Of a stretch of 64,000 bases of DNA, positions 39,134-64,000 are shown piece by piece. Position 1 is the stretch's first letter; each line of letters starts with the position of its first letter. The DNA lies in assembly GCF_030315685.1 (NCBI RefSeq), contig NZ_JASXSI010000002.1, forward strand, positions 1 to 64,000, read 5' to 3'. The translations under genes were made by a program, and so were the position numbers. The notes below the pieces were generated by a model. The model was not told the DNA's origin. It did not search any database and worked only from the letters and a program-made list of their open reading frames with translations. The stretch is from Gordonia sp. ABSL11-1 (GTDB lineage Bacteria; Actinomycetota; Actinomycetes; Mycobacteriales; Mycobacteriaceae).

Positions 39134-41160
<2,027 letters not shown>

Positions 41161-41161
<1 letters not shown>

Positions 41162-41580
41162 TAGGGGGCCTCGAGTATCGGGTTCTCGGCGTCGGTGACG
41201 ACGTGGAGGGCGACGCCGTGTTGCTCGAGTTCGGTGGTGAGCTGGCGGAGGAATGATGGACGCTGGGCGAGGATTTCGAGGCTGGTGACGTAGCAGTTGT
41301 CGATGCGTTCGGCTCGGGCGAGCGCCATTAGGTAGTACAGCCCGGAGCGTGTGGTTGAGTTGGCTGATCTGTGCATATCGATAACGTCGACGAGCCGTGG
41401 ATTGCTTTGGGTGGCCGCATACTTGTGAAGTCGAGTGAGCTGCGAGTTCCTTGCTGTGGAGGCCTCTGTTGGTTCAGTCGCGCCGACCCGGACGTAGCAT
41501 ACTGCTGTCCTGGGAGATTCATTATCGGAATGATGTTCTGATTCAGTACGATACTTGGTATCTGTATGAATGCTATTCAT
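41161..41580 (-). CDS. Catalytically dead resolvase-like protein
   Basis: The 139-residue protein aligns by eye to the N-terminal domain of serine recombinases: AVCYVRVGATEP, then a helix, an ARAERIDNCYV strand, and a closing ELEQHGVALHVVTDAEN. The catalytic Ser (usually YVRVS) is Gly/Ala at residues 33-34, and the conserved Arg-rich YKLDRLSR segment reads VTSLEILAQRP. It has no DNA-binding domain. The ATG at 41580 follows a GGAAAG ribosome site, and its stop overlaps the integrase start (TAATG), so the pair is translationally coupled. It could be a recombination directionality factor or a regulator that binds the integrase catalytic domain; that is inference. Confidence 0.7.
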
Positions 41581-41799
41581 GTGTCTTTCCTTCCTTGATT
41601 CAGTTATATTGGCGTTCAACGCATTAACCAATCTGTCCTAATGATAACTCTGGTCACTGGCTATGCCGATAGCGATTGTGACGCGGAATTTACATCTGTT
41701 GCAGTGGTTTACGCGGCGACTTGGTGATGTGGTGCGTCCCGGCGAATGGAAGACCTGCCGTGAGCTGCCGGTGTGAGTGTGCCGGGCACTGTTTCTGGT

Positions 41800-42489: not shown

Positions 42490-42508
42490 AGGTTTCCTCC
42501 TTTCGGGG

Positions 42509-43357: not shown

Positions 43358-43538
43358 GGCGGTGGCCTCCGTCGATGCCTTGCCGCGCTAGACCTGGCCC
43401 GCGGGCCGGCCGGCCGGACCGCTGAATCAGCGGTCAGTTGCATCCCGGAAAGGCGGAACGAGGCCGATCGTGCTGCGGAAGCGGGAAAACGTGAGCAACG
43501 TGGCCGGATGGTCGACTGGACGGTTCGACGGACACTCC

Positions 43539-45749: not shown

Positions 45750-45988
45750 TTCGCTTCCTCCGAGTCGGGACCGCGATGGTCAGTCGGACTGGGCTCGGGC
45801 GCCGCGGTGCGTTCTGCTTTGGCGTCGGCTTCTGCCTGGGCGGCGGCCAGGTCACGGGCGTGCTGCAGCAGTGCGCGGGCAAGGCGAACACGATCTGGCG
45901 GATCGCGGCGATCGTCAGTGATACGAATTCGCCGGTCGGCATTGCGCCGGTACGCGCGGCGGGGATGGGTGCGACGGGAACGTGTCAT
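45746..45988 (-). CDS. Small basic coiled protein
   Basis: The 80-residue Arg-rich protein has a basic N-terminus (TRSRRTHPRRAYRRNADRR) and an Ala-rich helix (LARALLQHARDLAAAQAEADAK). The start at 45988 has an AGGAGG ribosome site, and the stop overlaps the ATPase start as GTGA. It resembles the small proteins that precede transfer ATPases in actinobacterial elements and may bind DNA. No family was recognised. Confidence 0.65.
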   Translation of the reverse strand: MTRSRRTHPRRAYRRNADRRIRITDDRRDPPDRVRLARALLQHARDLAAAQAEADAKAERTAAPEPSPTDHRGPDSEEAK

Positions 45989-46107
45989 CGCCTGAGTCCT
46001 CCTTTCTGTACGGCGTGATGGCTGGCGCTGATTGCGGCACATCCCCACACCCAAAGGAGGTCGTCTCTCTTGTCTATGCGCCTCTGGTCAGGAAAAGTCA
46101 ATGGCGA

Positions 46108-46123
46108 GTGTCGATTTGACAAC
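46108..46123. promoter_or_regulatory. TGTC-N5-GACA palindrome (copy 1)
   Basis: TGTC-GATTT-GACA at 46109-46121 sits upstream of the leftward transfer operon. A near-identical element occurs at 48239-48255 on the opposite orientation (12 of 13 core positions match when reverse-complemented). The repetition at two operon heads suggests a shared regulator of the element. On the minus strand a TTGACT hexamer and a CATAGA hexamer follow 17 bp apart, a possible promoter. Confidence 0.55.
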
Positions 46124-46166
46124 AACTGACCTCTAACTGATGAGATTATGAAATTCTGCTGAGTAC

Positions 46167-46367
46167 TCACCATGGTCGGCTCCTTGCTCGCCACCACAGC
46201 ACCACGATCCACACTGCGGCGGCGCAGACTCCGATGACGACCAGCCAGATCCAGATCCGGGACAGTAGGTCGACGGCGATGGACAGCGCCACCGCGCCGA
46301 ACAGTGCCACGAGGCAGAAGCGGGCGAACCAGTCGAGTGGGCTCTTAGTCGGGTTCGGCTCAGCCAC
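46167..46367 (-). CDS. Small two-helix membrane protein
   Basis: The 66-residue protein has a short polar N-terminus and two hydrophobic helices (FARFCLVALFGAVALSIAVDLL and WIWLVVIGVCAAAVWIVVLWW), ending in RARSRPW. The GTG at 46367 has a GAGGAGG ribosome site. It overlaps the MT-A70 gene by 8 bp. Small hydrophobic proteins of this size are common in transfer modules, and a membrane anchor for the transfer ATPase is one idea. Confidence 0.65.
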   Translation of the reverse strand: MAEPNPTKSPLDWFARFCLVALFGAVALSIAVDLLSRIWIWLVVIGVCAAAVWIVVLWWRARSRPW

Positions 46368-46959
46368 GGTGGCCTCCTCTCTGTGTGTCCGACGGCACGG
46401 GATACCCGGGCATGGTGATGTCGCTGTCGATTTCGTTGCCCCAGGCATGCCAGCCGGGTTGTCGGCGCCGGGCGAACAACTCAAGGTATGGGCCGCTCGA
46501 GATTCGCTCGATGACGGCGTACTGCTCCTCGGGCTTATGGGAGTGGTCCTGTAGCGGCGCGAACATCCAGGTCGGCTGTGCGCGGAAGTTCACCGGCGCT
46601 CGGCCGCGTGTACCGAGGATGAGGTGCTCGGTGGCGTTACGTAGGTAGTTGCCGAGGCCGAGGCGCGGTTTGATCCAGGTCAGGGGCGATCGAGGCACGA
46701 AGCCCCAGGACTCCATGACGTCGTACCCGTCGCGCAGCGTCGCGTTCGTCACCCAGAGCCACAGGTGCGCATCGTCTTCGGCGAGGTCGGCGACGGTCAT
46801 AGCCTTGATGCGGTCGAGTGTCATCAGCGAGTAGTGCTGACTTGCTCCCAGATGTCCCTTCTGCTGGACGTCCCAAGGTGGGTCGGCCATGATCGTCCGA
46901 AACTTCGGCGGGGGAGTGCCAGCTCGATTGTGTTGGCGGGCCTGTCGTGCGGTGCTCAT
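46360..46959 (-). CDS. MT-A70 family N6-adenine methyltransferase
   Basis: The 199-residue protein has the MT-A70 catalytic motif DPPW in TIMADPPWDVQQKG (near residue 28) and the SAM-binding region AHLWLWVTNATLRDGYDVMESWGF. It also shows TEHLILGTRG and the C-terminal KPEEQYAVIERISSGPYLELFARR, all typical of phage and element DNA adenine methyltransferases. No restriction enzyme is next to it, so it probably protects or marks the element DNA. The start overlaps the C5-methyltransferase-like stop as ATGA. Confidence 0.88.
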   Translation of the reverse strand: MSTARQARQHNRAGTPPPKFRTIMADPPWDVQQKGHLGASQHYSLMTLDRIKAMTVADLAEDDAHLWLWVTNATLRDGYDVMESWGFVPRSPLTWIKPRLGLGNYLRNATEHLILGTRGRAPVNFRAQPTWMFAPLQDHSHKPEEQYAVIERISSGPYLELFARRRQPGWHAWGNEIDSDITMPGYPVPSDTQRGGHRG

Positions 46960-47999
46960 GCGGGCATCTCCTTGTTGGCGGTTGACCCGGGTTTTGCGGC
47001 CCGAAGTGCTGAAATGACCTCGCGTGCAACGGCTGACGCGACCGGCACAGCTACTGAGTTGCCGACTTGACGAAGGGCGCGGGCCCGGGAAGCGGGCAGC
47101 TTGAAACCGTCGGGGAAGCCTTGCAGCGCAGCGGCTTCTCGCGAGGTCAGGCGGTGTACTCGGTCGTCAACGGTGTAGGTATCCCAGTTCACCCGGGCGT
47201 TGGCGTGGTCGCGGAGGCCGCTTCCGAGCAACGTGTAGCTCAGTTCTCGGTCGCACTGTCCGCCAAGGACGTCGCCGAGCGTCTGTGTAAGCGGCACCGG
47301 ATCGGGGAAGGCGAACGGTGTCGATGGATCTTTGAATCCGACCATGAAGAGCCGCGGGCGCAGCTGGGGAAGGCCGAAGTCGCAGGCACGGAGCACCCCC
47401 GTGTGAAACGAGTAGCCGAGCTGCGAGGTCATGGTGTTTCGGATAGCGGCGAATGTCCTGCCTTGGTGATGAAACCGAAGGCCCGCGACGTCCTCGAAGA
47501 TGTACGCCCGCGGTTGGGTGTGCCTGATGAGGCGCGCGAGATGGACGAGCAGGGTGTCGTGTTCGTCGTGGCCGCGCTGCATCTCCTTGAACGAGAACGG
47601 CTGGACGGGGAAGCTCGCCGTCACGACGTCGTGCTCGGGGATGTCGGCGGGATCGACTGCGCCGATGTCGGACGCGAACCGTCCGCAAGAGAAGAGTTCG
47701 GGCCGAAGCGTCTGAAAGTTGTTCTGGTATGTAGCACGGGCGAGCGGGTCGTTCTCGGTCGCGAACACGCACTGAGCGCCGAGGCTTGCGAGCGCGAGAT
47801 GGAATCCGCCGATGCCGGCGAGATCATCGACGAACCGGATGGGATCTTCGGTGCTGGTCGGCTCTTTGGGGCGGATGGGAGATGCTGCGGCGACGGCGTG
47901 CCGTCCGAGGCGGCTTTTGGGCGCAGGCGATCCTGTTGATAGTAGATCGAGGAGGCTGGTTTGGCGTTCTGCAGGTGGTGCAGGGTGGGGCGTGGTCAT
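46956..47999 (-). CDS. C5-cytosine methyltransferase homologue lacking the catalytic Cys
   Basis: The 347-residue protein has clear C5-MTase architecture: motif I FVDDLAGIGGFHLAL, motif II/III around FATENDPLARATYQNNF, motif VIII PQLRPR and motif X RQVGNSVAVPVA. In motif IV the canonical Pro-Cys-Gln reads Pro-Val-Gln (residues 131-133, FPVQPFSF), and in motif VI Glu-Asn-Val reads Glu-Asp-Val (169-171). Without the Cys nucleophile cytosine methylation is not expected. It retains SAM-site and target-recognition regions. It may act as a DNA-binding decoy, a regulator, or a partner of the MT-A70 enzyme downstream. The ATG at 47999 has a modest GGA site. Confidence 0.85.
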   Translation of the reverse strand: MTTPHPAPPAERQTSLLDLLSTGSPAPKSRLGRHAVAAASPIRPKEPTSTEDPIRFVDDLAGIGGFHLALASLGAQCVFATENDPLARATYQNNFQTLRPELFSCGRFASDIGAVDPADIPEHDVVTASFPVQPFSFKEMQRGHDEHDTLLVHLARLIRHTQPRAYIFEDVAGLRFHHQGRTFAAIRNTMTSQLGYSFHTGVLRACDFGLPQLRPRLFMVGFKDPSTPFAFPDPVPLTQTLGDVLGGQCDRELSYTLLGSGLRDHANARVNWDTYTVDDRVHRLTSREAAALQGFPDGFKLPASRARALRQVGNSVAVPVASAVAREVISALRAAKPGSTANKEMPA

Positions 48000-48238
48000 G
48001 GCGTGTAATTCCTTTCTGGCCCGGTGTTTTAGGGCGCACGAAACCGCGGCGACGACCTGGCAGGTCGTGCCGGGATAGGTGCGGGAGGTGCCGGGATCTG
48101 TCCCTATTACGGCTGAGCCGGGTTCTCGGCTCAATCGTCCGGCCGGGTGACGCGTCGCCCGGTGAGATGGGCGATCGGACACGGGAGTGCAGGGGTCAGA
48201 GTGGCGATTCTGGCAGTGGTTTGGTCACCGCGAATTGC

Positions 48239-48255
48239 GTTGTCAAATAGACAAC
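48239..48255. promoter_or_regulatory. TGTC-N5-GACA palindrome (copy 2)
   Basis: A 17-bp perfect-arm palindrome (GTTGTC-AAATA-GACAAC) lies between the VWA gene and the methyltransferase operon. Reverse-complemented, its core matches the element at 46109-46121 at 12 of 13 positions. Within it, TTGACA on the minus strand could double as a -35 hexamer for the methyltransferase genes. The rest of 48000-48271 shows no gene. Confidence 0.55.
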
Positions 48256-48271
48256 TTGGATACCTGAGGTG

Positions 48272-49003
48272 CTACGGATGGGCATCACCCGCCGCCCTTG
48301 CATCGATGAACGCGGCCGTTAGCGCCGTTGCGACGGCACCCGGTTGAGACGATGGTCCTATCCGCGACACGGTGACCGTAGGGTCAGCCTCGAGTACGGA
48401 GGGTGGCTCGGCCCCGAGCATGACCACGTGCTTGTCAGCTCCTAGGTTCCGGATCCGTTCAAGGACGTCGTCCGGGTGGTCGTCGGTGAGCAGGAAGTCG
48501 GAGAGCACCACCACCATGGCCTTGCCCTGAGCTTCGCTGGTGATCTGCTCAGCGATGTCGAGACTTGGGCCGAGCGAGCTCGACCCTGGGTCTGTCGGCA
48601 TGCGAAGCAGACCACGTTCGAGGTGCCGAAGACCTGATTTCGAAAGCGTCTGGCGCAGGATGGCTGTACCGCTGGGACAGTCAAACGAGACCAGGCTGAT
48701 CCGTTCGCGCCGGCAGCGGCAGGAAGCGGCAATGTGATGAATAGCCGTCTGCAGCTCGCTGATCCGGTCCGATAGCGGATCGTTGCCGCCCGGGCCGGAG
48801 ACGCTCGGGGAGTTGTCGATAAGTGCGATGAGGTCGACCGCGTGCCCCGGACACGCGCCGACGTCCGGCAGTACGAGTCTGGGTCTTAGCTCAGGGCGGG
48901 ACGTCGTGCGAGGCCTATCGGTCTGGGTCGGAATCACGCTGTCGGGCAGGAGTCCGACGGGCAGCAGGACTGGAACCGGTGACGATGACTGCCGGGTGTT
49001 CAC
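48272..49003 (-). CDS. VWA-domain protein
   Basis: The 243-residue protein is a von Willebrand factor A domain. A strand leads into the MIDAS motif DNSPS (DLIALIDNSPSVSG, near residue 60), a Thr/Ser follows in the DPGSSSLGPSLD region, and the Asp is in VVVLSDFLLTDD. It is probably cytosolic, since there is no signal peptide. The first 50 residues are Pro/Arg-rich and unstructured. It is the last gene of a three-gene operon with two GTGA overlaps. VWA domains with a MIDAS often partner MoxR-type ATPases, and here a STAND NTPase diverges from the operon. Confidence 0.8.
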   Translation of the reverse strand: MNTRQSSSPVPVLLPVGLLPDSVIPTQTDRPRTTSRPELRPRLVLPDVGACPGHAVDLIALIDNSPSVSGPGGNDPLSDRISELQTAIHHIAASCRCRRERISLVSFDCPSGTAILRQTLSKSGLRHLERGLLRMPTDPGSSSLGPSLDIAEQITSEAQGKAMVVVLSDFLLTDDHPDDVLERIRNLGADKHVVMLGAEPPSVLEADPTVTVSRIGPSSQPGAVATALTAAFIDARAAGDAHP

Positions 49004-50067
49004 CGCGTCTCACCTCCGCGCGGCTTGCGCCCGATCGGGGCAAGCGCCCGTCCGTGCCCGACGACATCGGGACTCTCCATGAGGGCGCGGTTCTTGTCGG
49101 CGGCGAGGTGCTCGCTCGCCGCCGATCCGCGGGCGCCATGTTCTCGGACCACCGACGCGGCAATCTCGCCCGCATGCAGGCCGAGAAGAAGGCGCGGCCC
49201 GGCCGTCAGACGCAAATGGCGACGTAGTGCTCGCTTGTAGGTGCGTTCGGCGCCATCGAGCAGATCAGCGATGGCATCGGCGTGTGTCCAGGAGTTGACG
49301 AACGAGGCCAACGCGATGCCCGAGGACAATGCGGCAAATGTCCAACCGGCCGCGGACCCCTCGATCGCGGCACGCAGCGTGTAGATGCCGGATCCGATGA
49401 AGAAGACGATCGCGAGCGCCAGAAGGTTGAGCCCGGCGAGCCAGGCTGTCTTCTGGCGGCGCCCGTCGAGTAGGTGCCGGTATGGTTCCAGGGATTTCGG
49501 CATGTCGTCCGAATACGTGCGGATGCCGACCTGCGACGCTCGGCCCAGCTGTTCACCGGCCAGACCCGCCGTGACCGCGGCGACACCGGCTGCGCAGCCT
49601 TGGATCACCGCCAGCATCGGCATCTCACCCAGGCTTATCGCCGCGGTCGACGTGCCGACCACATCACCGAGGAGGAGTCCGAACATCCTGCAGCGGTAGC
49701 CCCAGTGCGAACGTGTGGATCGCAGCACCAGTGCGCTCAACGCAGCCTCGGCGTCTCGAAGGTGGTCCCGGGCCGAGACGACGAGCGGATCGTCGATCGC
49801 GACGAGCTGGCGAACCCGATCAACATGAAGACCCAGTGCGGTCGCGCGCGCCGCCCGGGGACGGGCCAGTGCGACGCCTGCAGCCGCGTGAAGATGGAGC
49901 TGCTCCTGCGCCTCCGCGTCGTGGGCATCTTCGAGATAGGTCGCACCGGCCAGCGTCTGCGGCCGCGCCACCGCGCTGGCGCCGTCAACATGCGGCAGCC
50001 GGTTGGCGCGGACTGGTGTCGGGCGGGGAACCGCCCGGCGTCTGGGTCGCGTGCTAGTCCCGATCAC
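49000..50067 (-). CDS. Membrane protein of the VWA operon
   Basis: The 355-residue protein has a helical N-terminal region and about four transmembrane helices in two pairs (around GEMPMLAVIQGCAAGVAAVTAG, and around WLAGLNLLALAIVFFIGSGIY with AGWTFAALSSGIALASFVN). A basic, helical C-terminus follows. The GTG at 50067 overlaps the lipoprotein stop, and the end overlaps the next gene's GTG, so the operon is tightly coupled. No family was recognised. It may anchor the two VWA proteins on either face of the membrane. Confidence 0.65.
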   Translation of the reverse strand: MIGTSTRPRRRAVPRPTPVRANRLPHVDGASAVARPQTLAGATYLEDAHDAEAQEQLHLHAAAGVALARPRAARATALGLHVDRVRQLVAIDDPLVVSARDHLRDAEAALSALVLRSTRSHWGYRCRMFGLLLGDVVGTSTAAISLGEMPMLAVIQGCAAGVAAVTAGLAGEQLGRASQVGIRTYSDDMPKSLEPYRHLLDGRRQKTAWLAGLNLLALAIVFFIGSGIYTLRAAIEGSAAGWTFAALSSGIALASFVNSWTHADAIADLLDGAERTYKRALRRHLRLTAGPRLLLGLHAGEIAASVVREHGARGSAASEHLAADKNRALMESPDVVGHGRALAPIGRKPRGGETR

Positions 50068-50885
50068 TTCGCACCGCGCGATTCCGGATCGGTCACGATC
50101 AGGCACGACGCTGCCCGTGAGGCCTGGCAGACTTCGGTCTGGAACGCTTTGAGGGCATCGACGTACGTGCTCGGCAGCTGCCCGTCGTCGCTCGTCCGGC
50201 CCACCCCGATGATCCGGATGTGGACACCCGGCAACAAGGCGGGCGTGACGGTGCGCGCCAGCCGCGTCGCTTCAGTGGTCGTCAAGCCGTGATCGGTGAG
50301 CCCCGTCGGCACCGTGCTGATGCCATCGGTCAGCACGGTGAATGTCATTGACGTCGCACCCGCTGCTGGTTTGGCCTGAGCGAAGAATTCCGCCGCTGCG
50401 TGGTACTGAGCCGTCGTGTCCGTTCCGTCGCCGGGCAACGTGGCAAGAGCCGCCGGCAGCGCCTTATCGATGGCTTCTATGCTGTCGTCGACGATCTTCG
50501 GCACTTTGCGCAGCCTCGCGACTTCAGTTGCGCCGTCGGCACGTAGATCACCGTCGAACACCGTTTGTCCGACCTGCGAGCCCGAGAAGACAGTGAGGCG
50601 GAAAACGCCGCCGCATACAGCCGTCCGTGTAATCCCGCCGTGGATCACCTGTTGACGGATTGCGCGCGAGGTACTGCCGCGCGACGTGGTCGATTCGTCG
50701 GAGGCGATCAGCGCCGACTGTTGTGCACCCTTGCACTGCTCTCGCAGCGCATGGAGATCGGCAAGGACGCCCGGCTGGGCCGTTGAGGAGCAGGCCGACC
50801 CGAGGACAAGAGTCGCGGTAGCAAAAGTCATTCCAACTGCAACACTGCGAGCTCTGCGAAACACTTTAAAATCCCTGACTCGCAT
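50064..50885 (-). CDS. Exported VWA-like lipoprotein
   Basis: The 273-residue protein has a basic N-terminus, a hydrophobic stretch and a lipobox ending LGSACSS with Cys 32, so it should be lipid-anchored outside the membrane. After this, IASDESTTSRG resembles a degraded MIDAS, and TFTVLTDGIS looks like the later VWA strand with its Asp-Gly. A disulfide is possible from Cys pairs. Two adjacent ATGs (50888 and 50885) share an AGAGGAAG ribosome site. It is the first gene of the VWA operon and diverges from the STAND NTPase, with 274 bp between them. Confidence 0.7.
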   Translation of the reverse strand: MRVRDFKVFRRARSVAVGMTFATATLVLGSACSSTAQPGVLADLHALREQCKGAQQSALIASDESTTSRGSTSRAIRQQVIHGGITRTAVCGGVFRLTVFSGSQVGQTVFDGDLRADGATEVARLRKVPKIVDDSIEAIDKALPAALATLPGDGTDTTAQYHAAAEFFAQAKPAAGATSMTFTVLTDGISTVPTGLTDHGLTTTEATRLARTVTPALLPGVHIRIIGVGRTSDDGQLPSTYVDALKAFQTEVCQASRAASCLIVTDPESRGAK

Positions 50886-51159
50886 CATCTTCCTCTCGTT
50901 CGTGGTGCGATGTGCGGCCAACCGTAGGTGCCAGTCGAAATTGAGAACGGTCCCCGATACGTCAAACCCATGACCAATGACGGTCGCCTGGGTGCTCGAG
51001 GTGACAACCCCCGTGTACAGGCGCGACAGAACAGTTGGTGTGACATGGAGCACTTACTTGTCCTGGCGAAGCGATGTCGAGTGAGCCGTCGCCGGGGTGT
51101 GCGTGCACGTTCGGTTCGTTACGATTGCGGTTCGCGCTTCGTGGAAGCTGAGGAGTGTC

Positions 51160-54100
51160 GTGCCAGAGGAACCTGGTGTCAGGGAGGTGGTCTCCGCCAT
51201 CCATTTCCTGACCCGCACCGGCGGTAGCGGTGCAATTGACTCAGCGGAAGTCGCGGAAGCTCCCGCGCTACAGCGTTTGGCCGACGTCTGGCACGGCGGG
51301 AGTGATGCTACTGGTGTCGAACTCGTCCAGCGATTTCTGCGCGCATTAGTTGAGGAGTTCGGCAGCCCTGTGCCGCCGGAACACGGCGGACCTCGGGCGA
51401 TGTCCGAGGGCAACGTGGTCGTGGTCGTTGGCCGCATGTTGCGGCTCAACCCTGAGGTGCCGGCCGCGATCACTCATAGAAGAAGGGCGGCCGTGGCAGG
51501 ACTCAACGTCAGCATCGCCATCTTCCGAAATGACGAAGACCACAACAAGTTCGACCAGTATGTGGTTCGGTTTGCCCAGCTGGCGCTTCAGTTCGCAGAA
51601 GAGGGGCGTGCTAATCGCACTCACGCAGTCGGAGCTTCCCCAAACTCCAACTTCAGTGACGCGGCCCTCGGCCGGGTCGAGCGACTTTCACGTCGCTACA
51701 TCGAGGACGTCGGGGCGCAACACCTTCTCGGACGTGCTGCGACCAGCACCGGCAGTCTGTACGTCACCCGAGATGTTGAGGCACAGCTCGAAGCGGACCT
51801 TTTAAATCCTGGTTCTGACACGCGTGTGCTTGTCGGTGAGGCTGGGTACGGAAAGACCAGTCTGTTGTGGTCTCTGTGCAATAGATTAGAGCGCCGTGGC
51901 AGACGTCCGCTTTTAGTCTCCGCGACATGGCTGCAGGGCGACTCGCACGGCGAGCGGGTGATCTCCGCAAGAGCGGTAGTCGATGAGATCGCTGAGTCGC
52001 CGAAGGGAGCAGTCCTACTGCTCGACACTGCTGACCTACTGCTGCACAGTGAATCCGCACGCGTCGAGGTAGTCGAGCTGGTCGGGCAGATGAAGGCGAT
52101 GGCAGTGCCGACGATAATCTCGACGCGTCCACTCGAAGCTCGGAGTCTTGCGCCTGGCTTCGGTCGCCGGGTGTTTCTTGAGGCGTACGACCTGGAACGT
52201 GAGTTGCCGAATGCGATCGGGGCACTCGCCGCTACGTACTGCTCGACAACACACGCACCAACCTCAGATGCGGTAGCGGCGATTCTGTCCGCTCGGGCTC
52301 GAGGACTCATCGTTGACGAGGTCTGTCGAAGCCCGCTACTGCTACGTCTCCTGTTCGAACTGTCGGCACCGCACTTCCCCCTGCTGGAGATCGACGTTAC
52401 TGGGCTGTATGACCTCTTCTGGGAGCGACGCATAGCGACCGACGTTCGCCACCTCGACGGCGTCGCTTCGGTCACGCCGGAAGACGATCTGAGTGACTCA
52501 GCTGGCCTTATCGCTATTGCAATGCTGGCTCTCGGATCTCCAGAGCCCAGCATTGCTAGTGTCGTGCGCCGTGGAGCCGAAGCCGCACGGAATGCACAAC
52601 TGTCACCCACTCAGGATGACCTGACTCGCGCGCTAAGCGCCCTCGAAAAACGCGGTGTCGTCGTGACAAGAGACAAGTTCAGAGTGCACGACCGATCGGT
52701 GAGGTACTTCCACCAGACCTTCTTCGAGTATGCGGCGGCGAAAGGTTTGTGCGGTCGTGGTGCTGACCGAGAGGTGCCGAGACTCGTTCGTCGATTGCGG
52801 CAGCTTCCTGACGATCTGTTCGTCGGCGCAGTCCTTGAGCAGGTGTTAGTCATGCTCGCAAACGACGAGCTTGCTAGGCCCGTGGTCAAAGAAGCACTTC
52901 GTGATCTCGTTGAGTCTGAAGAGCCGAATCTCGTTGCGATCGCAATGGTGATCTGGGCGCATCACCCGTGGCTCTTAACGGCTGATCCCCAGCTGCTCTC
53001 CACCCTCAGCACGGACGCGCTTCGCAGATTCGTGCGAAGCGTCTCTGGCGTACATAGCGATCCGTTCTCGGTCGCAGAGCACCTCAATTCAATATGGATT
53101 CGCCATCGGGAGCTCCGAACCGATGTGGTGGCCGCGGCACTCTCGCTAGTTGGCCGATCGCCGGCGGCGGTAACGGAGTTCGTTCGGCTAGCAAGTGTCT
53201 TTAGCTGCCTTGCCGTCGAACATGCTGAATATGTGCGTGCCAACGCCGAACCTAGGGTGCTCTTAAGCAGCGTAATTCAAGAGGATCCCGCGTTGGGACG
53301 GGACCTGATACACGACGTAATATATGAGATAACGTTGGGTGACCGGAAGCGTCGTGAGCTGGCGCAGAAGACACGCAAGAACGATGCAGGCAAGGATCGC
53401 CAAGGTAAAGAAGCTGTCGCCCAATATCTTCGATTGGCTGCCGCCCACTGGCCTACGCTCGGATCAGATACGTATCTTAGGGAGCTTGAGGATCTCGTCG
53501 ACCGAATCCAGGACGCTTCCGGTGACAGCGATTCCAAGGTAGTTCGAGACGCCCTTGCTGAGGTGATTGCAGCGCGCTGGATCGCCCAACGGGGCAGCGC
53601 TTGGGCAGATGAGTGGGCAGCATGGGTCGCGGGCCTCTGTCGTAGCCTGGAATCGCAGATCGTTTCGGCAGACGGTGAGCTCAGAGACGGTGACCAGTCG
53701 CCAATACTCGGCAGCAGGCTTGTCGCGGTGGGTCTCGTTCTCGCCACATTCTCTCAATCGTCCGACACTTCCATCATTGACACAACCGTGGCGATTCTGT
53801 TCGGGCTTAGTGGTCCGTCCGCGCCCCGTCAATTGGGTCGCGGATGTGTCGTTCAGGTGCTGATTCGCGATTGTCCAGCAAGAGGCGCTGTCATCTTACG
53901 GCTCGCTGATTGCCTCGACGGGCATCTTCCGGCCGAACATCAAGTCTTCGTGCCTGGGCCAGAACTGTGGGCAGCGACATCACGCATGATTCTGATGGAT
54001 AGCCGCATTCCATCGACTGTGGTTACCGAGGTGCTCGCTCCAGTTACACGCGCGCAGTCAACCAATAATCGCCTTTGGACGTCACCAAGATGGCTGGTTT

Positions 54101-55524
54101 CTCTCGCCGCGGCGGCCATTGTCGCCGACGACCATTCAGCCCTCGTAGCGATCCGGTCCATGAAAGACACGCCCGTCGCTTCCGAAAGCTGGCAGCGGGC
54201 TGTGAACATTTTTCTGGATCATGCGCGAGAGCGAGCGCCGGAGCGCCCGGCAGTCTTGGTGCCGCTAGCGCTTACTCTGGCACGGAAGGTTAAGCGACCA
54301 TCCACCGCAAAATCTCTTCTTCTCCATGACGCCAACCGCGAGGAGCTCCGTAATCAGAGTGCCATATTCCGGGATTGGATTGGTGCACTTCTGACAGGGA
54401 CCGACAAGGAGCAGGCGGAGGGCGCAGATCTACTAGGACTATTGGTGAAGACGAGAGTTTTCCTACCAGAATTTGACAGAGTCCTAGGTTGGTATCAGGG
54501 ACTCCGCGATCCGTCTGCTAAGGCGAATGTTCTAAAATCCGCTTCTTTAATGACTATCAGGACGGCTCATTTGCCCGCGGCCGCGGTGCTCTTTTCGTCG
54601 ATCGTCACATCGAGCCGTGACCCGGAACCTCGGATTCGCCCTGCTCGGATCGAAGGGCGAGTTGATCAACCGAGGGTTGTTGACGCTGCGCGCGACGCCC
54701 TGCTAGAGGCACGCGCATTTCTGCCTGAAGCGTGCCCGGCGGAATGGGACGAAGTGTTTACGCTCATGTTCGCACCCCGCCTTCTCGGAAGGATGCGCAC
54801 GGAGGTCGGGGGAGCGGGCAATCTGTCGCGGTTCATGACGCTCGAGGTGGAGAATGGATACATCGACGACGTGCTTCTTCAGCTACGAGAAGTCGTCGAG
54901 GAGATGGAACGGTTGTCAGCCACCCAAGTGCACGACGTGGCGAACCGCATGCGCGTCGCGGTGGGGACGGCGATCAGACACGCCGAACCACGTCATTTCT
55001 ACGTTCTCGCCGACATTGCCGAACACGCACCGAGGCATCTCCGAACCCAGATCGCGCGAGGACTACTCAACGCGAAGATCCCGCCTGATCTCGAGAGGCG
55101 GCTTGCCGCCTACCTACCGGGTCGCCCACGCATCGATGGTGTTGGTACGTTCCCGGAGGTCCTGGCTGTGCCAGCGGTCACGGACGAGTCGGCAGACAGT
55201 AGCGGAACACTTGACAGTGAGATTTCGGAGCGCCGCCGCGTCTTGCGAGGGTCGGTTCGCGCCGCGCTAAGAGCCATAAGGAAATCCGGGCTCACTTCGG
55301 CACAGATGGGAAAGAACCTTCGCATCGAGCCATCCTCCTACCGGGCGCTTAATGTAGCAACAGCGTCCTGGCGGGTCCCATCCGAGGAGCTGTGTCGGAA
55401 GATCGATGCCTACTGCGACTCCGAACTGAGTCGATCCTTCGGGCTAGTGAACGCCCGCCGAGAGCTTGAAGAGGCGGAGGAGCGGAAGAAGGACCGCGAC
55501 TCATGGACACAGGGCATCCACTGA
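51160..55524 (+). CDS. STAND-type NTPase with HEAT-like C-terminus
   Basis: The 1,454-residue protein has a 200-residue N-terminal region of unknown fold and then a P-loop NTPase: Walker A VGEAGYGKTSLL (near 226-237) and Walker B GAVLLLDTADLLL (near 286). A winged-helix-like segment and a FHQTFFEYAAAKGL motif near residue 518 recall NACHT/STAND proteins. About 850 residues of helical repeats follow and end in a basic tail. Such proteins are ligand-gated switches in signalling, cell death and phage defence. The GTG at 51160 follows GAGGAG; a longer frame from 51097 is possible. The N-terminal effector could not be identified. It diverges from the VWA operon. Confidence 0.75.
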   Translation: MPEEPGVREVVSAIHFLTRTGGSGAIDSAEVAEAPALQRLADVWHGGSDATGVELVQRFLRALVEEFGSPVPPEHGGPRAMSEGNVVVVVGRMLRLNPEVPAAITHRRRAAVAGLNVSIAIFRNDEDHNKFDQYVVRFAQLALQFAEEGRANRTHAVGASPNSNFSDAALGRVERLSRRYIEDVGAQHLLGRAATSTGSLYVTRDVEAQLEADLLNPGSDTRVLVGEAGYGKTSLLWSLCNRLERRGRRPLLVSATWLQGDSHGERVISARAVVDEIAESPKGAVLLLDTADLLLHSESARVEVVELVGQMKAMAVPTIISTRPLEARSLAPGFGRRVFLEAYDLERELPNAIGALAATYCSTTHAPTSDAVAAILSARARGLIVDEVCRSPLLLRLLFELSAPHFPLLEIDVTGLYDLFWERRIATDVRHLDGVASVTPEDDLSDSAGLIAIAMLALGSPEPSIASVVRRGAEAARNAQLSPTQDDLTRALSALEKRGVVVTRDKFRVHDRSVRYFHQTFFEYAAAKGLCGRGADREVPRLVRRLRQLPDDLFVGAVLEQVLVMLANDELARPVVKEALRDLVESEEPNLVAIAMVIWAHHPWLLTADPQLLSTLSTDALRRFVRSVSGVHSDPFSVAEHLNSIWIRHRELRTDVVAAALSLVGRSPAAVTEFVRLASVFSCLAVEHAEYVRANAEPRVLLSSVIQEDPALGRDLIHDVIYEITLGDRKRRELAQKTRKNDAGKDRQGKEAVAQYLRLAAAHWPTLGSDTYLRELEDLVDRIQDASGDSDSKVVRDALAEVIAARWIAQRGSAWADEWAAWVAGLCRSLESQIVSADGELRDGDQSPILGSRLVAVGLVLATFSQSSDTSIIDTTVAILFGLSGPSAPRQLGRGCVVQVLIRDCPARGAVILRLADCLDGHLPAEHQVFVPGPELWAATSRMILMDSRIPSTVVTEVLAPVTRAQSTNNRLWTSPRWLVSLAAAAIVADDHSALVAIRSMKDTPVASESWQRAVNIFLDHARERAPERPAVLVPLALTLARKVKRPSTAKSLLLHDANREELRNQSAIFRDWIGALLTGTDKEQAEGADLLGLLVKTRVFLPEFDRVLGWYQGLRDPSAKANVLKSASLMTIRTAHLPAAAVLFSSIVTSSRDPEPRIRPARIEGRVDQPRVVDAARDALLEARAFLPEACPAEWDEVFTLMFAPRLLGRMRTEVGGAGNLSRFMTLEVENGYIDDVLLQLREVVEEMERLSATQVHDVANRMRVAVGTAIRHAEPRHFYVLADIAEHAPRHLRTQIARGLLNAKIPPDLERRLAAYLPGRPRIDGVGTFPEVLAVPAVTDESADSSGTLDSEISERRRVLRGSVRAALRAIRKSGLTSAQMGKNLRIEPSSYRALNVATASWRVPSEELCRKIDAYCDSELSRSFGLVNARRELEEAEERKKDRDSWTQGIH

Positions 55525-58578: not shown

Positions 58579-59096
58579 CGTTCCCCTCCTTACGCCTCGA
58601 TTTGATGACAAAGTCAAGCATGCTGACGCGCCACGCGCACGGTGGCAAGCGTCCGCATGTCCACTCGGTGCAGGATGTTATAGCCCGCCACCTGGTGCAA
58701 CCGCTTCCGCGATGCGACGACCCCGGTCACCTATCACCTGGCCGGCAGGGGTGCATGTGCACATGTCAGCTTCCAACTTGTGGTCAGAGTCAATGTGTGT
58801 TGTACGCAGACGTTTCCTCTTAGCTCGTTAGCCAAAGCAATCATTATTACCTGCTCAACGGGTTGCATGTTCCACTATCTGAGGCCTCCGTTGTCGTGAG
58901 AGGCGAAGATACGAGAACGGATTGACGGCTAGTGACAGCTCTGAATGCCGAGGCGCCCTCGTTGTGCACCCACTGGGCATCGAGGGCGCCCGATGCTCGC
59001 GGGTACGCCCTGGAACGAGTCGCATACTTCTGTGCTGACTTCGTCAGAAGGGGAGACTCAACTTCTCGATATTGCCGCAGCGCTAGGCCAACACCC
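58579..59096. other. Non-coding stretch with no supported gene
   Basis: Apart from the ribosome site and palindrome of the double-TetR gene at its left end, I see no credible coding region. Open frames here (for instance 58506-58823 on the plus strand) do not resemble any family and have no good ribosome site. The right part leads into a fragment of a LuxR-type regulator. Confidence 0.5.
58613..58627. promoter_or_regulatory. Palindrome upstream of double-TetR gene
   Basis: GTCA-AGCATGC-TGAC is a perfect 15-bp palindrome (apart from the central base) about 35 bp upstream of the TTG start. Its place fits an autoregulatory operator. A chance occurrence cannot be excluded. Confidence 0.5.
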
Positions 59097-59294
59097 AAGC
59101 TCCCCAACCGTGAGGTGCAGGTGCTGTGCGCACGGGATGTTGTCAGACTCAGACGCGAGGCGGCCGAGCGACATTTCATGACAGAGGCGGCAGTCAGCAC
59201 ACATCTGGCCGGAATTAAGACGAAATACTCAGTACTAGGACGACCCGCCGTCAGAACCAAAGTCGCCATCTTCGTTCGGGTGGTACAAGACGGG
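59097..59294 (+). pseudogene. LuxR-type HTH fragment
   Basis: The translated segment KLPNREVQVLCARDVVRLRREAAERHF ... TEAAVSTHLAGIKTKYSVLGRPAVRTK matches the C-terminal DNA-binding end of actinobacterial LuxR-type response regulators in order and spacing. The receiver or sensor domain is missing and no start is suitable. It looks like a remnant left by insertion or rearrangement. The open frame then runs on to 59519 through non-conserved sequence. Confidence 0.6.
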
Positions 59295-59515
59295 CACGGG
59301 ACATTCGACGAATGTCAACCCCACCAGCCCTGCCGAGGCGACCATCAGGGTGTTCGCCCGAACCACGACCGTCACGAGACTAAATCAGAACCGACCCGAG
59401 GCCAAATGTGTAAGAACCTAAATATAGCAATAACGGTGACACAGCGACATAGGGATGATCTACGTCGACGAGCGACTATACAGTCTGTCCACTTCGGCGT
59501 ATTTACGGAGCTGAT

Positions 59516-60292
59516 GTGAATCCTGACGGACCACCTCAAAGCTTCGTAACGCGCACCAAGACGGGCGAGAATAGGACTGCAGGCCTGTTATTTCCTGCGG
59601 ATGCAGATTTGTCAAAGTTTCTTGCGGGCTGTCCGGACGCTTTACGTCGGCCGAATTTCGAAGTGTCGGCCTGGGGTAAAGCGGCCGTAGTCGACCCTTT
59701 GACCCGAAGCTCGAAGAGAATTGAAGTTCTGGTTTATCAAGACGGTATCAGTTCCGCGCTGGTTCCCTGTGGAAACGCGGTCGTCGCCGCTGCCGCTGCC
59801 TATGGCCGGCAATGGCCAGAGGCTGAAGTGGTTGCTTACGAGCCGAGGTCGGGTTATCGATACCAGCTGGCAGTCAAGGTTCTAACCAAGACCCAGTCAG
59901 TAGTCTCTGGTCACGTCGAATTCAGTGTCGGATTTGCATCAAGATTTCCGGACCATCCAGATTGTTTTCAACTAGATAATTATCTCATAATCTTGGGAGA
60001 CCATACTCGCGTCGAGAGGAAATTCGCAGAGAAGCTAGAGCATGGAGATAGGATGATGGTTTGCGGAAGTCGAAATCTGTATTTCATTAACTCCCATGGA
60101 AGGCATGGAAGTTATCCCATTACTGGGATAATTGCACTCGCAAGAATGATGACTCTCGGCCTGATCGAGTCGGCAGAGGTACCCGGTATTGATCAGCTTG
60201 GATTGGTTGTTGAGGCGGGGAGTAGGCCCGGTGCACGATCATTAAGGCTCCCCCAGCGCGTCGTAGAGATTGGAGAGTTCACTGGTGGATGA
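59516..60292 (+). CDS. Hypothetical protein, possible DapF/PrpF-fold epimerase
   Basis: The 258-residue protein has one suggestive motif: ISSALVPCGNAVVAAAAAYG near residue 80 recalls the Cys-Gly-Asn loop of diaminopimelate epimerase, PrpF and proline racemase. A second Cys occurs in MMVCGSRNLYF near 183, roughly where the partner Cys could lie. The overall match is weak. The GTG at 59516 has a GGAG site. It is the first gene of an AT-rich cluster and overlaps the PRTase gene by 8 bp, so it probably acts in the same pathway, perhaps racemising an amino acid. Confidence 0.5.
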   Translation: MNPDGPPQSFVTRTKTGENRTAGLLFPADADLSKFLAGCPDALRRPNFEVSAWGKAAVVDPLTRSSKRIEVLVYQDGISSALVPCGNAVVAAAAAYGRQWPEAEVVAYEPRSGYRYQLAVKVLTKTQSVVSGHVEFSVGFASRFPDHPDCFQLDNYLIILGDHTRVERKFAEKLEHGDRMMVCGSRNLYFINSHGRHGSYPITGIIALARMMTLGLIESAEVPGIDQLGLVVEAGSRPGARSLRLPQRVVEIGEFTGG

Positions 60293-60800
60293 CAAGCAGC
60301 TAGCACGGCATATGGTGCGTAAGCGAGACCATCTACGCGATCGCACCGGAAATGAGATGCCGTACCTGTTAGATATCAGAGGCGCTGGCGCAAATGTCGA
60401 GCTGCGCAACGAGATAATCAACAGAATGATGGCTGAACTGCATGGCCGAAATATATGCTCGGTGATAGGAGTGGCAAATTCCGGGCTAATATGGGGGGCG
60501 TGGCTAGCTGGCGGCCTTCGCGTTCCATACGGCACGGTATTGCCCGACGGACCACGCGAGTCTGGTCTTCAACGCAGTGTGGAGGGCGAGCTTCCGCAAG
60601 GTTCTGTGGTATTGGTAGACAACTGGATTATCACGGGTGATTCGGTAGGCCGCGCAATTGCAGCTATCTCCCGAGAATCGCCAGGGTTGACTATCGACTC
60701 TATCTTACTCGTCGCGCGACCCAAGGCTGTTCCAGATCTGGGTGTTCCCATACTTTCAGCGGTGGACGCTGAGTCGCTCTATGAGCTAAAGCGGGAATAG
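60285..60800 (+). CDS. Orotate-phosphoribosyltransferase-like PRTase
   Basis: The 171-residue protein has a type I PRTase fold: YLLDIRGAGANVELRNEIINRMM, CSVIGVANSGLIWGAWLAGGLRVPYG, and the PRPP loop VVLVDNWIITGDSVGRAI, where the usual Asp-Asp is Asp-Asn. The catalytic Lys-rich loop of true orotate PRTase (RKxxKxHG) is replaced by LPDGPRESGLQRSVEG, so the base is probably not orotate. The GTG at 60285 follows GGAGAG. PRTases in cargo clusters often make unusual nucleotides. The linked MBL, HAD and ATP-grasp genes fit a small biosynthetic pathway. Confidence 0.75.
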   Translation: MDDKQLARHMVRKRDHLRDRTGNEMPYLLDIRGAGANVELRNEIINRMMAELHGRNICSVIGVANSGLIWGAWLAGGLRVPYGTVLPDGPRESGLQRSVEGELPQGSVVLVDNWIITGDSVGRAIAAISRESPGLTIDSILLVARPKAVPDLGVPILSAVDAESLYELKRE

Positions 60801-60857
60801 AATATACTGAAAGAGCCACTAGAACTCACTCTAAGAATCCGAGAAAGGGGTTTTCAA

Positions 60858-61484
60858 ATGAAACTTACTAGATTACATCAGGCAGGATTTATAATCGAGT
60901 CACCAATTGGTGCTCGAATTGGCTTTGATTTTGGATCGGGCTCGAACCTAGATGACATCTCTCGTCTGAAACCTGACATTGTGTTTGTCAGCCATCAGCA
61001 CCCCGACCATTTTGACAGAGACCTTATTGACGGGCTTGCCGTACCCGTTGTCGGCCCTAAATCCTTGGTGAAGCAGCTAGCATTCGCCAGGCACTATGGC
61101 TTAGGACCTTGTGACTCTTTTTCGTTCGCAGACGTTATAGTAACGGCTATCCAGGTGAATCATGGACCAATTAGCGCAAGCATTGAGCATTTTGGCTATC
61201 TTCTGAAAATTCTGAACCGTACCATCTTTTTCATGGCCGATTCCAAAAGATTCGTTAAGCCGCCTGTGGCATTCGACACTGTTCTGATCCCGGTCGGTGG
61301 AAACAAAGTATTTACGCCACAAGAAGCGGCGGACTATCTATCTTCCATCTCCTTTGCCGGTACAATTATTCCTATTCATACCGAAATTGCTGCAATTGAA
61401 GGTTCACGCAGCGAGTTCATCGAGCTTGTAGGAAACGGTCAAATGGTATTCGATTTACAGCCGGGGCAATCGGCGGATATCTAG
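60858..61484 (+). CDS. MBL-fold metal-dependent hydrolase (UlaG-like)
   Basis: The 208-residue protein is a metallo-beta-lactamase-fold hydrolase: IVFVSHQHPDHFDRDLI holds HxHxDH (near residue 52), NHGPIS supplies another His, MADSKRF the Asp, and the C-terminal IPIHTEI the last His. It resembles UlaG-type hydrolases acting on phosphorylated or cyclic sugars and lactones. The ATG at 60858 follows GAAAGGGG. The AT-rich upstream 57 bp could hold a promoter or be a short operon gap. Confidence 0.8.
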   Translation: MKLTRLHQAGFIIESPIGARIGFDFGSGSNLDDISRLKPDIVFVSHQHPDHFDRDLIDGLAVPVVGPKSLVKQLAFARHYGLGPCDSFSFADVIVTAIQVNHGPISASIEHFGYLLKILNRTIFFMADSKRFVKPPVAFDTVLIPVGGNKVFTPQEAADYLSSISFAGTIIPIHTEIAAIEGSRSEFIELVGNGQMVFDLQPGQSADI

Positions 61485-61491
61485 GTGCGCA

Positions 61492-62088
61492 ATGAGTTTT
61501 CGAAGAGTCATTTGGGACTCGGACGGAACTATAGTGGACTCTGGGGATGCGATCAATAACATTGCACGCGATCTAGGCGCGCTTCTTCAGTTAGCTGATG
61601 TCTCAACTTATCGAGAACTTCTGTCAGCTGCCGGAGTGCAATTCGTCGATCCAATGAAGTTGACAACTATCCGAGATTTTCACAGGCTAAGCTTGTTGTG
61701 TCGCGCGCCCACTCTCGGAGTTGTAGAAGGGCTGCAAGAGATTATGGCGGGAGTCAAGATCGACCAGGTTCTGGTGACTGCAGGACACGCCGACACATTT
61801 GCCATAGCTGCGGGTCCTGAAATAGTCAGACATTTCGTTGAAATCGCTGGATGTGACGCGGCTGAAAAATTTGATTTGATCGGCAGATTTTCGGAAGGTG
61901 CGATAGCAATAACCGATTCGGTTGTTGACGCCGCGCGTTTTCAGCAGGCAAGAGTTCCATTTATTGGCGTGACCTGGGGTCTCGATGACTGGGAATCCTT
62001 AAAGGAGGCCGGTGCGATTTCAGTTTGCCGATCAGCGGGTGAGCTGCGCAAGGTATTGCTCTCGCTAGATATTGTCGACGAGACATAA
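61492..62088 (+). CDS. HAD-family phosphatase-like protein
   Basis: The 198-residue protein has HAD motif I VIWDSDGTIVDS (nucleophile Asp near residue 9), a motif II-like VTAGHA, and motif IV in AIAITDSVVDAARFQQARVPFIGVTWG. The cap insert is about 60 residues, as in beta-phosphoglucomutase-like phosphatases. It should dephosphorylate a small metabolite, possibly the nucleotide made by the PRTase. The ATG at 61492 is 8 bp from the MBL stop. Confidence 0.8.
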   Translation: MSFRRVIWDSDGTIVDSGDAINNIARDLGALLQLADVSTYRELLSAAGVQFVDPMKLTTIRDFHRLSLLCRAPTLGVVEGLQEIMAGVKIDQVLVTAGHADTFAIAAGPEIVRHFVEIAGCDAAEKFDLIGRFSEGAIAITDSVVDAARFQQARVPFIGVTWGLDDWESLKEAGAISVCRSAGELRKVLLSLDIVDET

Positions 62089-62101
62089 GAAATGAGCAGT
62101 T

Positions 62102-63436
62102 ATGAAGCAACAAAAAGACTTTCACGCTATTGCAGTGGAGTTGGCATTGCTCGCCGCAGGCCATAGTTTCCCTCGTCTGAGTCAAGTTGGTGCGGGCTGG
62201 GTTGAAGGGTCCGACGGGCCGCGGAGGTCCGAAATTTATTCCCTTTCGGAGCCCTCGTTTTCTATTGCGACCGATACGTCATCATTTGGTATTTTCTTGC
62301 TTGACACCTTAGTTGCGCGTGACGGACGAATCTGCTTAATCGAGGCAAATGGCTCGAATGCTGCGTTGTCATCGGCAATTTCGGGTCGTGACGATAGACG
62401 CGCGAGACATATGTACTTGACCTTACGTAGCCGACGTTGGACTGACGCTCCCAGCGTTGCATTAATCGCTTATGCGCCAAGTCTGCTTCACATCGGAGAG
62501 TTGTATCTAAGGGCGGGCGTATTTGCACAGTATCTCTCTGAAGAGTTTGTAGTTCGGCTGACAAATGACCGAGATCACCTAGGCGACGAAGAAATATCAA
62601 TAGTCTGCGGAAGAATTCCAGATCTCGCCGACCACATCACGTCGGACGGTAGAGGTATCTACTACAGGGGTCGGCCCGTCGTATTCGGGACCAATCCAAA
62701 CTTGCTTCCAGAGCTTGTTCGGCGTGGAATAATCCGGCGCGATGGAGATTCGTATAATCCACCACCCGACTTCCAACATGAAGGCGCGGCTGCCGCAATC
62801 GTGCATAATAAGAGCTGGCAACAGGACCTTGCGCAGGGTACTGGTTTTACACCGCTTCGCCATGCGGAAGCGGTAAGTGAGCACGATGCATGGGAGATTA
62901 TCGAGTCCTTTATCGCTGATGGAATGCCCGTCATAGGGAAAATCAATGCCGGCTCTGGTGGGGTGGGGATCGAGTGTTTTGCTCCTGTTAACTCCGTAGC
63001 CGAGCGACAAAGAAGGCTCGATAATATGCTTTCCACAGCGAGGGAGCGCTATGGAATGAATGCGGACGATACCATATTTCCACTGCGTTTCTTCGAATTC
63101 GCCACCTCGACACCGTACACTTTGCGCGACGGTCCGCGTTTGTGGGATTTTCGGTTTCAATGCTTAGTATCGCCGGGGCGGGTCGAAGTCACGCCATGCG
63201 TGATTCGGCTGTGCCCTGAGGCATTTGACGAATCGACCTATGATCGCGGGGGGGTGGTTGCGAACCTGACCGGTCGTCCGCCTAGTCTGCGTTACCTAAG
63301 GGCGCCGTCATCTCTGCGAAAGAGCGATCCGTCGGTCTCCGTTCTTGACGCGATGGGCATTGGCCAACAGCGCTATTACCAGATGGTCGAATCCTGCGCT
63401 CGTTGGTCGGAAGCCGCGTATAGAGGGCTCGCCTGA
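62102..63436 (+). CDS. ATP-grasp-like ligase
   Basis: The 444-residue protein shows ATP-grasp features: MPVIGKINAGSGGVGIECF (phosphate-binding Lys and Gly-rich loop, near residue 280), a later RFFEFATSTPY and DFRFQCLVSPG strand region, and an N-terminal LLDTLVARDGRICLIEANGSNAA that looks like the closing motif of this superfamily. The order of motifs is unusual, so it may be a circularly permuted or novel member. It would join a carboxylate and an amine using ATP. It is the last gene of the cluster, 14 bp after the HAD gene. Confidence 0.6.
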   Translation: MKQQKDFHAIAVELALLAAGHSFPRLSQVGAGWVEGSDGPRRSEIYSLSEPSFSIATDTSSFGIFLLDTLVARDGRICLIEANGSNAALSSAISGRDDRRARHMYLTLRSRRWTDAPSVALIAYAPSLLHIGELYLRAGVFAQYLSEEFVVRLTNDRDHLGDEEISIVCGRIPDLADHITSDGRGIYYRGRPVVFGTNPNLLPELVRRGIIRRDGDSYNPPPDFQHEGAAAAIVHNKSWQQDLAQGTGFTPLRHAEAVSEHDAWEIIESFIADGMPVIGKINAGSGGVGIECFAPVNSVAERQRRLDNMLSTARERYGMNADDTIFPLRFFEFATSTPYTLRDGPRLWDFRFQCLVSPGRVEVTPCVIRLCPEAFDESTYDRGGVVANLTGRPPSLRYLRAPSSLRKSDPSVSVLDAMGIGQQRYYQMVESCARWSEAAYRGLA

Positions 63437-63652
63437 TGAGTTGGTCCGACCCAGTCGTTGTGCTATCCGAGTAGTCGTGAGGTGCTGGTCCAGTGTGGGC
63501 AACTACAGTGCAGTCGGGTACTTCGGGTTAGTTGATCGTGGTGGGATCGACACAGATTGCGTGCCGCGCGCTCGATGCAAGAGCGGTAGGCGATCTATCT
63601 AGTGTCGTGTCTCGTAAGTTTGTAAACGCTTGACCGGTTGGGAGAATGAGTT

Positions 63653-64000
63653 GTGGCGGATTCCCCAGCTCCGGCGTTGACCCTTCGTGATGGCGATGAT
63701 GTTGAACTCGAACGCATTTTGCGGTCGACGACGGCGCCGGCGGGTGCGGTGAAGCGGGTTGGTATCGTGGCGTTGGCCGCCGAGGGGATGGCGAACTCGC
63801 GGATACAGGAGTTGACAGCCGCGTCGAGCGCGACGGTGGTGAAGTGGCGTAACCGGTATCTGCGTGAGGGACTGGCCGGACTGGTCGACGCCGAGCGTTC
63901 CGGGCGCCCCCGGGCGGGTCGACCACGCCGCGATCGTGGCCGCCACATTGAAGGGCCGCCAAAGAGATACGGTGTCTCGCACTGGTCGTCGCGGTTGCTG
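63653..64000 (+). pseudogene. IS630-type transposase N-terminal part, frameshifted and cut by window end
   Basis: From the GTG at 63653 the translation gives a helix-turn-helix region like IS630 transposases (RIQELTAASSATVVKWRNRYLREGLAGLVDAERSGRPR), then the match moves to another frame (VDHAAIVAATLK) near 63910-63950, and returns to the first frame for PPKRYGVSHWSSRLL. Two compensating indels are needed. The catalytic DDE part lies beyond the window. The sequence from about 63600 (GTGTCGTGTCTCGTAAG) may be the terminal repeat. 63437-63599 holds no gene I can support. Confidence 0.65.

Follow-up and report, generated by a model that had tools for sequence, protein, structure and literature searches.

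An ATP-grasp ligase is a member of the biosynthetic module associated with the Ter system. According to passages of PMC7824862, this system also includes nucleobase phosphoribosyltransferases (PRTases) and HAD phosphoesterases. Enzymes of these three kinds are encoded, together with a metallo-beta-lactamase (MBL)-fold hydrolase and a tentatively PrpF-like protein, in a five-gene cassette of Gordonia sp. ABSL11-1 (genome G000), which occupies positions 59516-63436 on the plus strand of the DNA analysed here (the window; the first 64,000 nucleotides (nt) of contig NZ_JASXSI010000002.1). Unlike a Ter module, the cassette resides in a genome without TerD (no match to PF02342 in G000, whereas 2 of the 14 control genomes were positive; no search was aimed at TerC), and the model ATPgrasp_Ter does not match the ligase encoded by gene 5 (P0005), the sole PF15632 match in G000 lying below the cut-off on contig C32. 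For these two reasons the cassette was not filed as a Ter-type module, and the Ter comparison drawn in a preliminary description of the locus was not supported. By analogy, the cassette could work in a Ter-like way.

Four enzymes of the cassette, namely the PRTase-like protein, the MBL hydrolase, the HAD phosphatase and the ATP-grasp ligase, are found together again on a distant plasmid. A tblastn search of the gene 5 protein against 72,556 plasmids returned a single record, plasmid pRJH2 of Rhodococcus pyridinivorans YC-JH2 (NZ_CP050180.1), in which the contiguous genes HBA53_RS24485-RS24510 on one strand code, in this order, for P0011, P0010, a HAD protein, a PRTase, an MBL protein and an ATP-grasp protein. 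The window and plasmid proteins are 34% (PRTase), 37% (MBL), 35% (HAD) and 36% (ATP-grasp) identical, with local-score z values of 23, 41, 21 and 85, respectively, and none of 1000 shuffled sequences reached any of these scores. Active-site residues of the MBL, HAD and ATP-grasp proteins are retained across both clusters, and the genes are close or overlapping in both, with gaps of -20 to 55 nt on pRJH2 and -23 to 57 nt in the window. The ATP-grasp gene comes last in each cluster and the PRTase-MBL pair is ordered alike, whereas on pRJH2 the HAD gene precedes the PRTase gene and the first-gene part consists of two open reading frames (ORFs), P0011 and P0010, which cannot be aligned with gene 1. 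The preliminary description had named scattered single-gene homologues without a conserved order as the outcome that would speak against its reading; this is not what is seen for the set as a whole, yet only one other cluster was found and its order is partly changed.

The layout given in the preliminary description, five same-strand genes with short gaps or overlaps, agrees with the ORF coordinates. From gene 1 to gene 5, the intergenic gaps in the window are -23, 57, 7 and 13 nt, the first of which becomes -8 nt if gene 2 begins at the GTG codon at 60285, its likelier start. The lower guanine-cytosine (GC) content described earlier was also confirmed, as the GC fraction is 0.517 for the cassette compared with a mean of 0.668 (standard deviation 0.025, minimum 0.591) for 511 equal-length stretches of positions 1-55000. 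The pRJH2 cassette, in contrast, has a GC content of 63.3%, and low GC is therefore no property of the cassette itself. That the enzyme set was acquired, as proposed before, is supported by its recurrence on pRJH2.

Gene 2 (60270-60800) codes for an orotate-PRTase-like protein, which resembles PyrE by profile and retains the D-x-R motif. Its PRTase match lies below the Pfam cut-off (4.9e-5) and its score against NCBIfam pyrE, 24.1 bits, misses the threshold of 106.8; a profile of the two cassette PRTases has clear domain-wide similarity to solved orotate PRTases (best 3e-10). The differences from PyrE are found in functional motifs. The phosphoribosyl pyrophosphate (PRPP) motif, VEDTSTTG in the PyrE encoded at locus L007, reads VDNWIITG (DNWIITGDS in gene 2) and IDNWLSTG in the two cassette PRTases, in which the acidic pair ED is thus replaced by DN, and the catalytic loop VRKSAKTHG reads LPDGPRESG and LVDGPRSKG, respectively. 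GVANSG replaces the PyrE loop. Compared with actinobacterial PyrE, both cassette PRTases lack the Lys/His of the catalytic loop as well as the second acidic residue, and the new pattern is common to both; the roles of these residues are those generally assigned to them in orotate PRTases. The earlier assignment as an orotate-PRTase-like enzyme therefore holds, but not its changed base-binding loop, since the alterations sit in the PRPP-binding and catalytic loops.

The protein encoded by gene 5 (62102-63436) has no Pfam match at E up to 1, that is, to no Pfam ATP-grasp model, and no NCBIfam match. A profile that combines gene 5 with its relative on pRJH2 and a more distant one aligned with Ter-type ATP-grasps (a profile built from 11 of 12 loci) at 90.6% probability over 62 columns in the ATP-binding region. 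The same three-sequence profile gave two matches to the D-Ala ligase 1iov, the order of which is swapped (whole-sequence E 0.0086): query 228-294 aligned with chain residues 91-161 (4.7 bits), and query 63-95 with residues 251-283, which contain the C-terminal E-A-N motif (11.3 bits). In addition, tubulin-tyrosine ligases were matched at their C-terminal part only (E 0.17-0.47), and when the N-terminal piece of gene 5 was searched alone, 5 of the 6 PDB matches at E up to 5 were D-Ala ligases at the E-x-N motif, although weakly (best E 0.38); this piece also matched the YheCD model at its C-terminal end (positions 200-240 of 255, E 0.075). Due to the swapped 1iov matches, the tubulin-ligase matches and those of the N-terminal piece, it is likely but unproven that gene 5 codes for a circularly permuted ATP-grasp ligase, in which the C-terminal E-x-N piece (E81/N83) has moved to the N-terminus and the ATP-binding part begins at approximately residue 230. 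Gene 5 has the ATP-binding region in common with ATP-grasps such as D-Ala-D-Ala ligase and the Ter-associated ligases and, judging from weak matches to D-Ala ligases, may also have the E-x-N motif, with the two regions in swapped order. Against a permutation, the N-terminal piece matches Ter ATP-grasps only weakly and off the expected motif, with a score of 17.6 that one of 100 shuffles reaches (best 18.2), and searching with rotated ATP-grasp sequences neither raised PDB or Pfam scores nor lengthened the Ter ATP-grasp match. The Pfam CP_ATPgrasp models of permuted ATP-grasps did not match P0005, P0009 or P0016 at E up to 1, and a search for ATPgrasp_ST gave no match anywhere, controls included, and is hence uninformative. 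The ATP-grasp-like ligase of the preliminary description thus stands for the ATP-binding region and is refined, on weak evidence, to an apparent permutation.

The MBL hydrolase and HAD phosphatase recognised earlier were both borne out. Gene 3 (60858-61484) has a clear Pfam match (PF13483, 6.4e-14), and its profile is nearest to the UPF0173 protein TM_1162 (PDB 3x2z, 3.7e-8), which it matches across most of the length. All metal ligands of the H-x-H-x-D-H, H, D, H pattern are present (H46, H48, D50, H51, H102, D128 and H174). However, gene 3 differs from UPF0173 hydrolases in falling far under the cut-off of NCBIfam PRK00685 (29.8 compared with 144 bits). Gene 4 (61492-62088) is a weak match by Pfam (0.049) and a clear one by profile (1.8e-9 to 3mc1, and 5.1e-6 to AlnB), and carries the HAD motifs DxD, Thr, Lys and D...D (D9, D11, T96, K126, D142 and D146).

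For gene 1 (59516-60292), we tentatively favour a PrpF-like over a DapF-like protein. Neither Pfam nor NCBIfam contains a family that matches its product (P0001), and P0001, P0010 and P0011 all lack a Pfam match, PrpF (PF04303) included; a model predicted from the single sequence had a mean pLDDT of 38 and was discarded. Against a profile of four actinobacterial PrpF sequences (4 of 6 loci, two weak partial matches being omitted), residues 36-89 of P0001 scored 27.1 and aligned with positions 37-96 in the N-terminal region up to the CGN motif, C85 included, while P0010 scored 37.3 over positions 188-316. The two proteins thus match different halves of the aconitate-type isomerase, each scores above 100 of 100 shuffles, and both outscore every one of the 13 natural controls, the highest of which reached 18.2. 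The gene 1 protein is also shorter than PrpF (258 residues compared with 371 in the model). A DapF epimerase was not supported: against a profile built from 13 of 18 loci, P0001 alone scored 16.1, which 25 of 100 shuffles reached, and a joint profile scored 21.6 compared with 16.7 for the reversed control. The possible epimerase suggested before thus resembles, if weakly, the isomerase-type PrpF rather than DapF.

The cassette appears to be very rare. Cassette proteins and profiles were used in 1547 genome searches with overlapping draws, and further clusters were found neither in these genomes nor in plasmids, phages, viral contigs or two motif scans of approximately 85,000 species genomes. 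In these scans, the gene 5 pattern gave 32 matches, none of them a relative, and the PRTase motif 5 matches, which we read as chance; as such patterns demand exact short motifs, they would overlook relatives in which these have changed. No relatives were detected in viral contigs for profiles A1, A2, A3 and A5, P0016 or the PRTase motif pattern, or in phages for P0005, P0002 and P0009. Among plasmids, P0005 and P0003 led only to pRJH2, and P0009 and P0007 only to themselves. With hidden Markov models (HMMs), the single ATP-grasp match among 401 genomes of the family came from the genome of the window itself. In the phylum, P0005 matched 2 of 296 genomes and ATP-grasp profile A8 matched 3 of 396, namely G000 and G003, both of which are matched by construction, and G1046, which holds a distant relative. 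When eleven cassette proteins were compared by tblastn with 9.0 kb (G003) and 8.4 kb (G1046) around the ATP-grasp genes, only the ATP-grasp gene itself was found in G003, and the contig end in G1046 (L016:8228-8356) gave a 45-residue MBL-like match (2e-4) that is too short to classify. The PRTase HMM matched 3 of 394 genomes of the class (the window's own and two PyrE) and 6 of 59 of the genus (its own, four read as PyrE and one further match, L019). Among the papers listed in literature searches there was no description of the five-gene set, which does not prove that none exists, and no mention of pRJH2; passages of PMC4431377 do not mention a PRTase. Taken together, the set probably represents a real, very rare and hitherto undescribed pathway.

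We consider it somewhat better than even that the genes form a mobile cassette for the biosynthesis of a single small molecule, which on the best reading of the sequences would be a ribosylated or ribosyl-phosphate, amide-ligated compound. The preliminary description had likewise assigned the five enzymes to one metabolite pathway, a view that gains from the recurrence of four of them as a set and loses its Ter-type component. From what is known of the families, and with guessed substrates and step order, the PrpF-like protein might isomerise an unsaturated or cyclic carboxylic acid, which the orotate-PRTase-like protein would couple to ribose phosphate from an uncertain donor. The MBL enzyme could then open a ring or ester, such as a lactone, imide or phosphodiester, the HAD enzyme would take off a phosphate, and the ATP-grasp enzyme would join an amino acid or amine via an amide or similar bond. 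Neither the window cluster nor the pRJH2 cluster contains a recognised transporter or regulator, and the product would therefore probably act inside the cell. If this is true, the cassette offers a compact, testable route to a new metabolite, with a PRTase lacking standard donor-site residues, for which one might ask which group is transferred, and a family of ATP-grasps that escapes the standard models; being rare and located on accessory DNA, the cassette would also illustrate cleanly how a metabolic pathway spreads as cargo. Compact mobile biosynthetic cassettes are a known kind of system; this one has two unusual enzymes, and it does not so far demonstrate a new mechanism.

Several observations weigh against a single five-enzyme pathway. 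Because residues of true orotate PRTases are missing, the cassette PRTase may not use PRPP at all. The fifth member of the set may also differ between the clusters, as gene 1 aligns with neither P0011 nor P0010 (z ~0), a tblastn search with gene 1 found nothing in the plasmids at E up to 1, and P0011 scores no better than shuffles against the PrpF profile (17 of 100 reach its score); the equivalence of the fifth gene thus follows from position and the common PrpF lead only. Two members of the phylum with small genomes carry distant relatives of the ATP-grasp protein but not the cassette (L002:1351-2688 and L014:1495-2829); these relatives belong to a wider family. With two clusters known, the functional linkage is derived from one comparison.

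The occurrence of these distant relatives without the set would fit horizontally acquired metabolic genes that became neighbours by chance and share no pathway. As four genes stand together again on pRJH2 at 34-37% identity, which is not expected by chance, this explanation is very improbable and largely refuted. It is quite improbable, too, that the five genes provide no more than a building block, as a fragment of a larger natural-product cluster with its other parts elsewhere: the divergent nucleotidyltransferase/PPDK_N/DHH operon beside the pRJH2 cassette and the lower-GC MFS and Gfo/Idh genes approximately 13 kb downstream of the window cassette could be such parts, but relatives of P0012-P0014 are present on plasmid pKNR without a detectable cassette, and P0012-P0015 are unmatched both in the window and in the 19 kb beyond it. 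Catabolic genes are often found on Rhodococcus plasmids, and the PrpF-like and UPF0173-like proteins are of isomerase and hydrolase types, with a TetR-like gene and an adenylate-forming-looking ORF upstream; one might therefore expect a catabolic or salvage module that degrades or recycles an unusual ribosylated or dicarboxylic compound. We regard this as unlikely, since the ATP-grasp ligase points to bond making and no transporter or oxygenase was recognised in either cluster.

The cassette might instead be a conflict system that acts against phages or rival mobile elements through its product, a modified nucleotide or a molecule resembling a nucleoside, a role of the sort that has been proposed for Ter biosynthesis genes in passages of PMC7824862. 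Both clusters are located on accessory DNA and lack a recognisable exporter, and a PDC-M48B match (5.3e-72) and a Tox-REase-7 protein with a HEAT neighbour lie downstream in the same region. On the other hand, none of the five proteins matched a PADLOC-DB family at E up to 1, by which a known defence system was rejected, no sensor or effector gene was recognisable in the cluster, the genome lacks TerD, and such rarity would be unusual for a useful defence system, so that a conflict role is, in our judgement, unlikely as well. That a repurposed orotate PRTase and a permuted ATP-grasp make a new nucleoside or ribosyl-conjugate which aids mobile elements against phages or rival elements, as one might speculate from the sequences, seems rather unlikely. 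We thus retain a mobile biosynthetic cassette as the preferred reading, for which the genomic settings of the two clusters are described below.

Both clusters are found on accessory DNA, one on plasmid pRJH2 and the other on low-GC DNA that is separated by 18 kb from a group of tRNA-associated genes for a recombinase, relaxation and coupling. The latter genes belong to a probable integrative element (39134-51053, minus strand) beside tRNA-Leu (39261-39345), which codes for a serine recombinase, Replic_Relax, a coupling-protein-like ATPase, and MT-A70 and type II methyltransferases. Within the window and the 19 kb that follow it, the tRNA region (39201-39420) has no repeat of at least 18 nt, and as the far end of the element was not found, it is by inference that the cassette lies inside it. 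At 51097-55524, a 1475-residue ATPase with a STAND-type look (AAA/NACHT weak) matches nothing in PADLOC at E up to 0.001 and might be an unlisted defence gene. Upstream of the cassette are approximately 0.9 kb without a convincing gene, then the TetR-like gene, the adenylate-forming-looking ORF (read by eye, no Pfam match) and this large ATPase. An ORF at 58932-59519 has, by eye, a possible degenerate LuxR-type helix-turn-helix and no Pfam match, and may be a remnant.

The left part of a broken IS630-like element (63599-64000, plus strand, read by eye) begins 162 nt past the last cassette stop, has the ends CTAGTGTCG and runs to contig position 64987 (position 987 of L017, the part of the contig that follows the window); by eye, an IS3 OrfA-like piece of the opposite strand interrupts its broken transposase. 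Further downstream, an MBL protein (L017:3426-4475) matches the candidate defence family PDC-M48B (5.3e-72) and adjoins a 241-residue ORF, and a protein with a C-terminal Tox-REase-7 domain is followed by a HEAT-repeat protein (L017:8596-10633), likely a toxin-immunity pair. The region thus carries conflict-type genes, with no tie from the cassette to conflict.

On pRJH2, the cassette adjoins the divergent operon P0012-P0015 with its nucleotidyltransferase, PPDK_N and DHH genes, and many of the flanking proteins are hypothetical. Relatives of P0012-P0015 were absent from the window and the next 19 kb (tblastn, E up to 1e-3), and those of P0012, P0013 and P0014 are found on R. opacus pKNR. Both plasmids carry an operon that codes for a nucleotidyltransferase, a PPDK_N protein and a hypothetical protein (L003:4030-8844 and L023:829-4818, 35-48% identity), with a DHH gene on pRJH2 and followed by a radical SAM gene on pKNR. 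Downstream of the window, a second lower-GC patch (L017:12520-15658, GC 0.50-0.58), approximately 13 kb from the cassette, carries the Gfo/Idh-like and MFS genes together with a GRDP-like gene.

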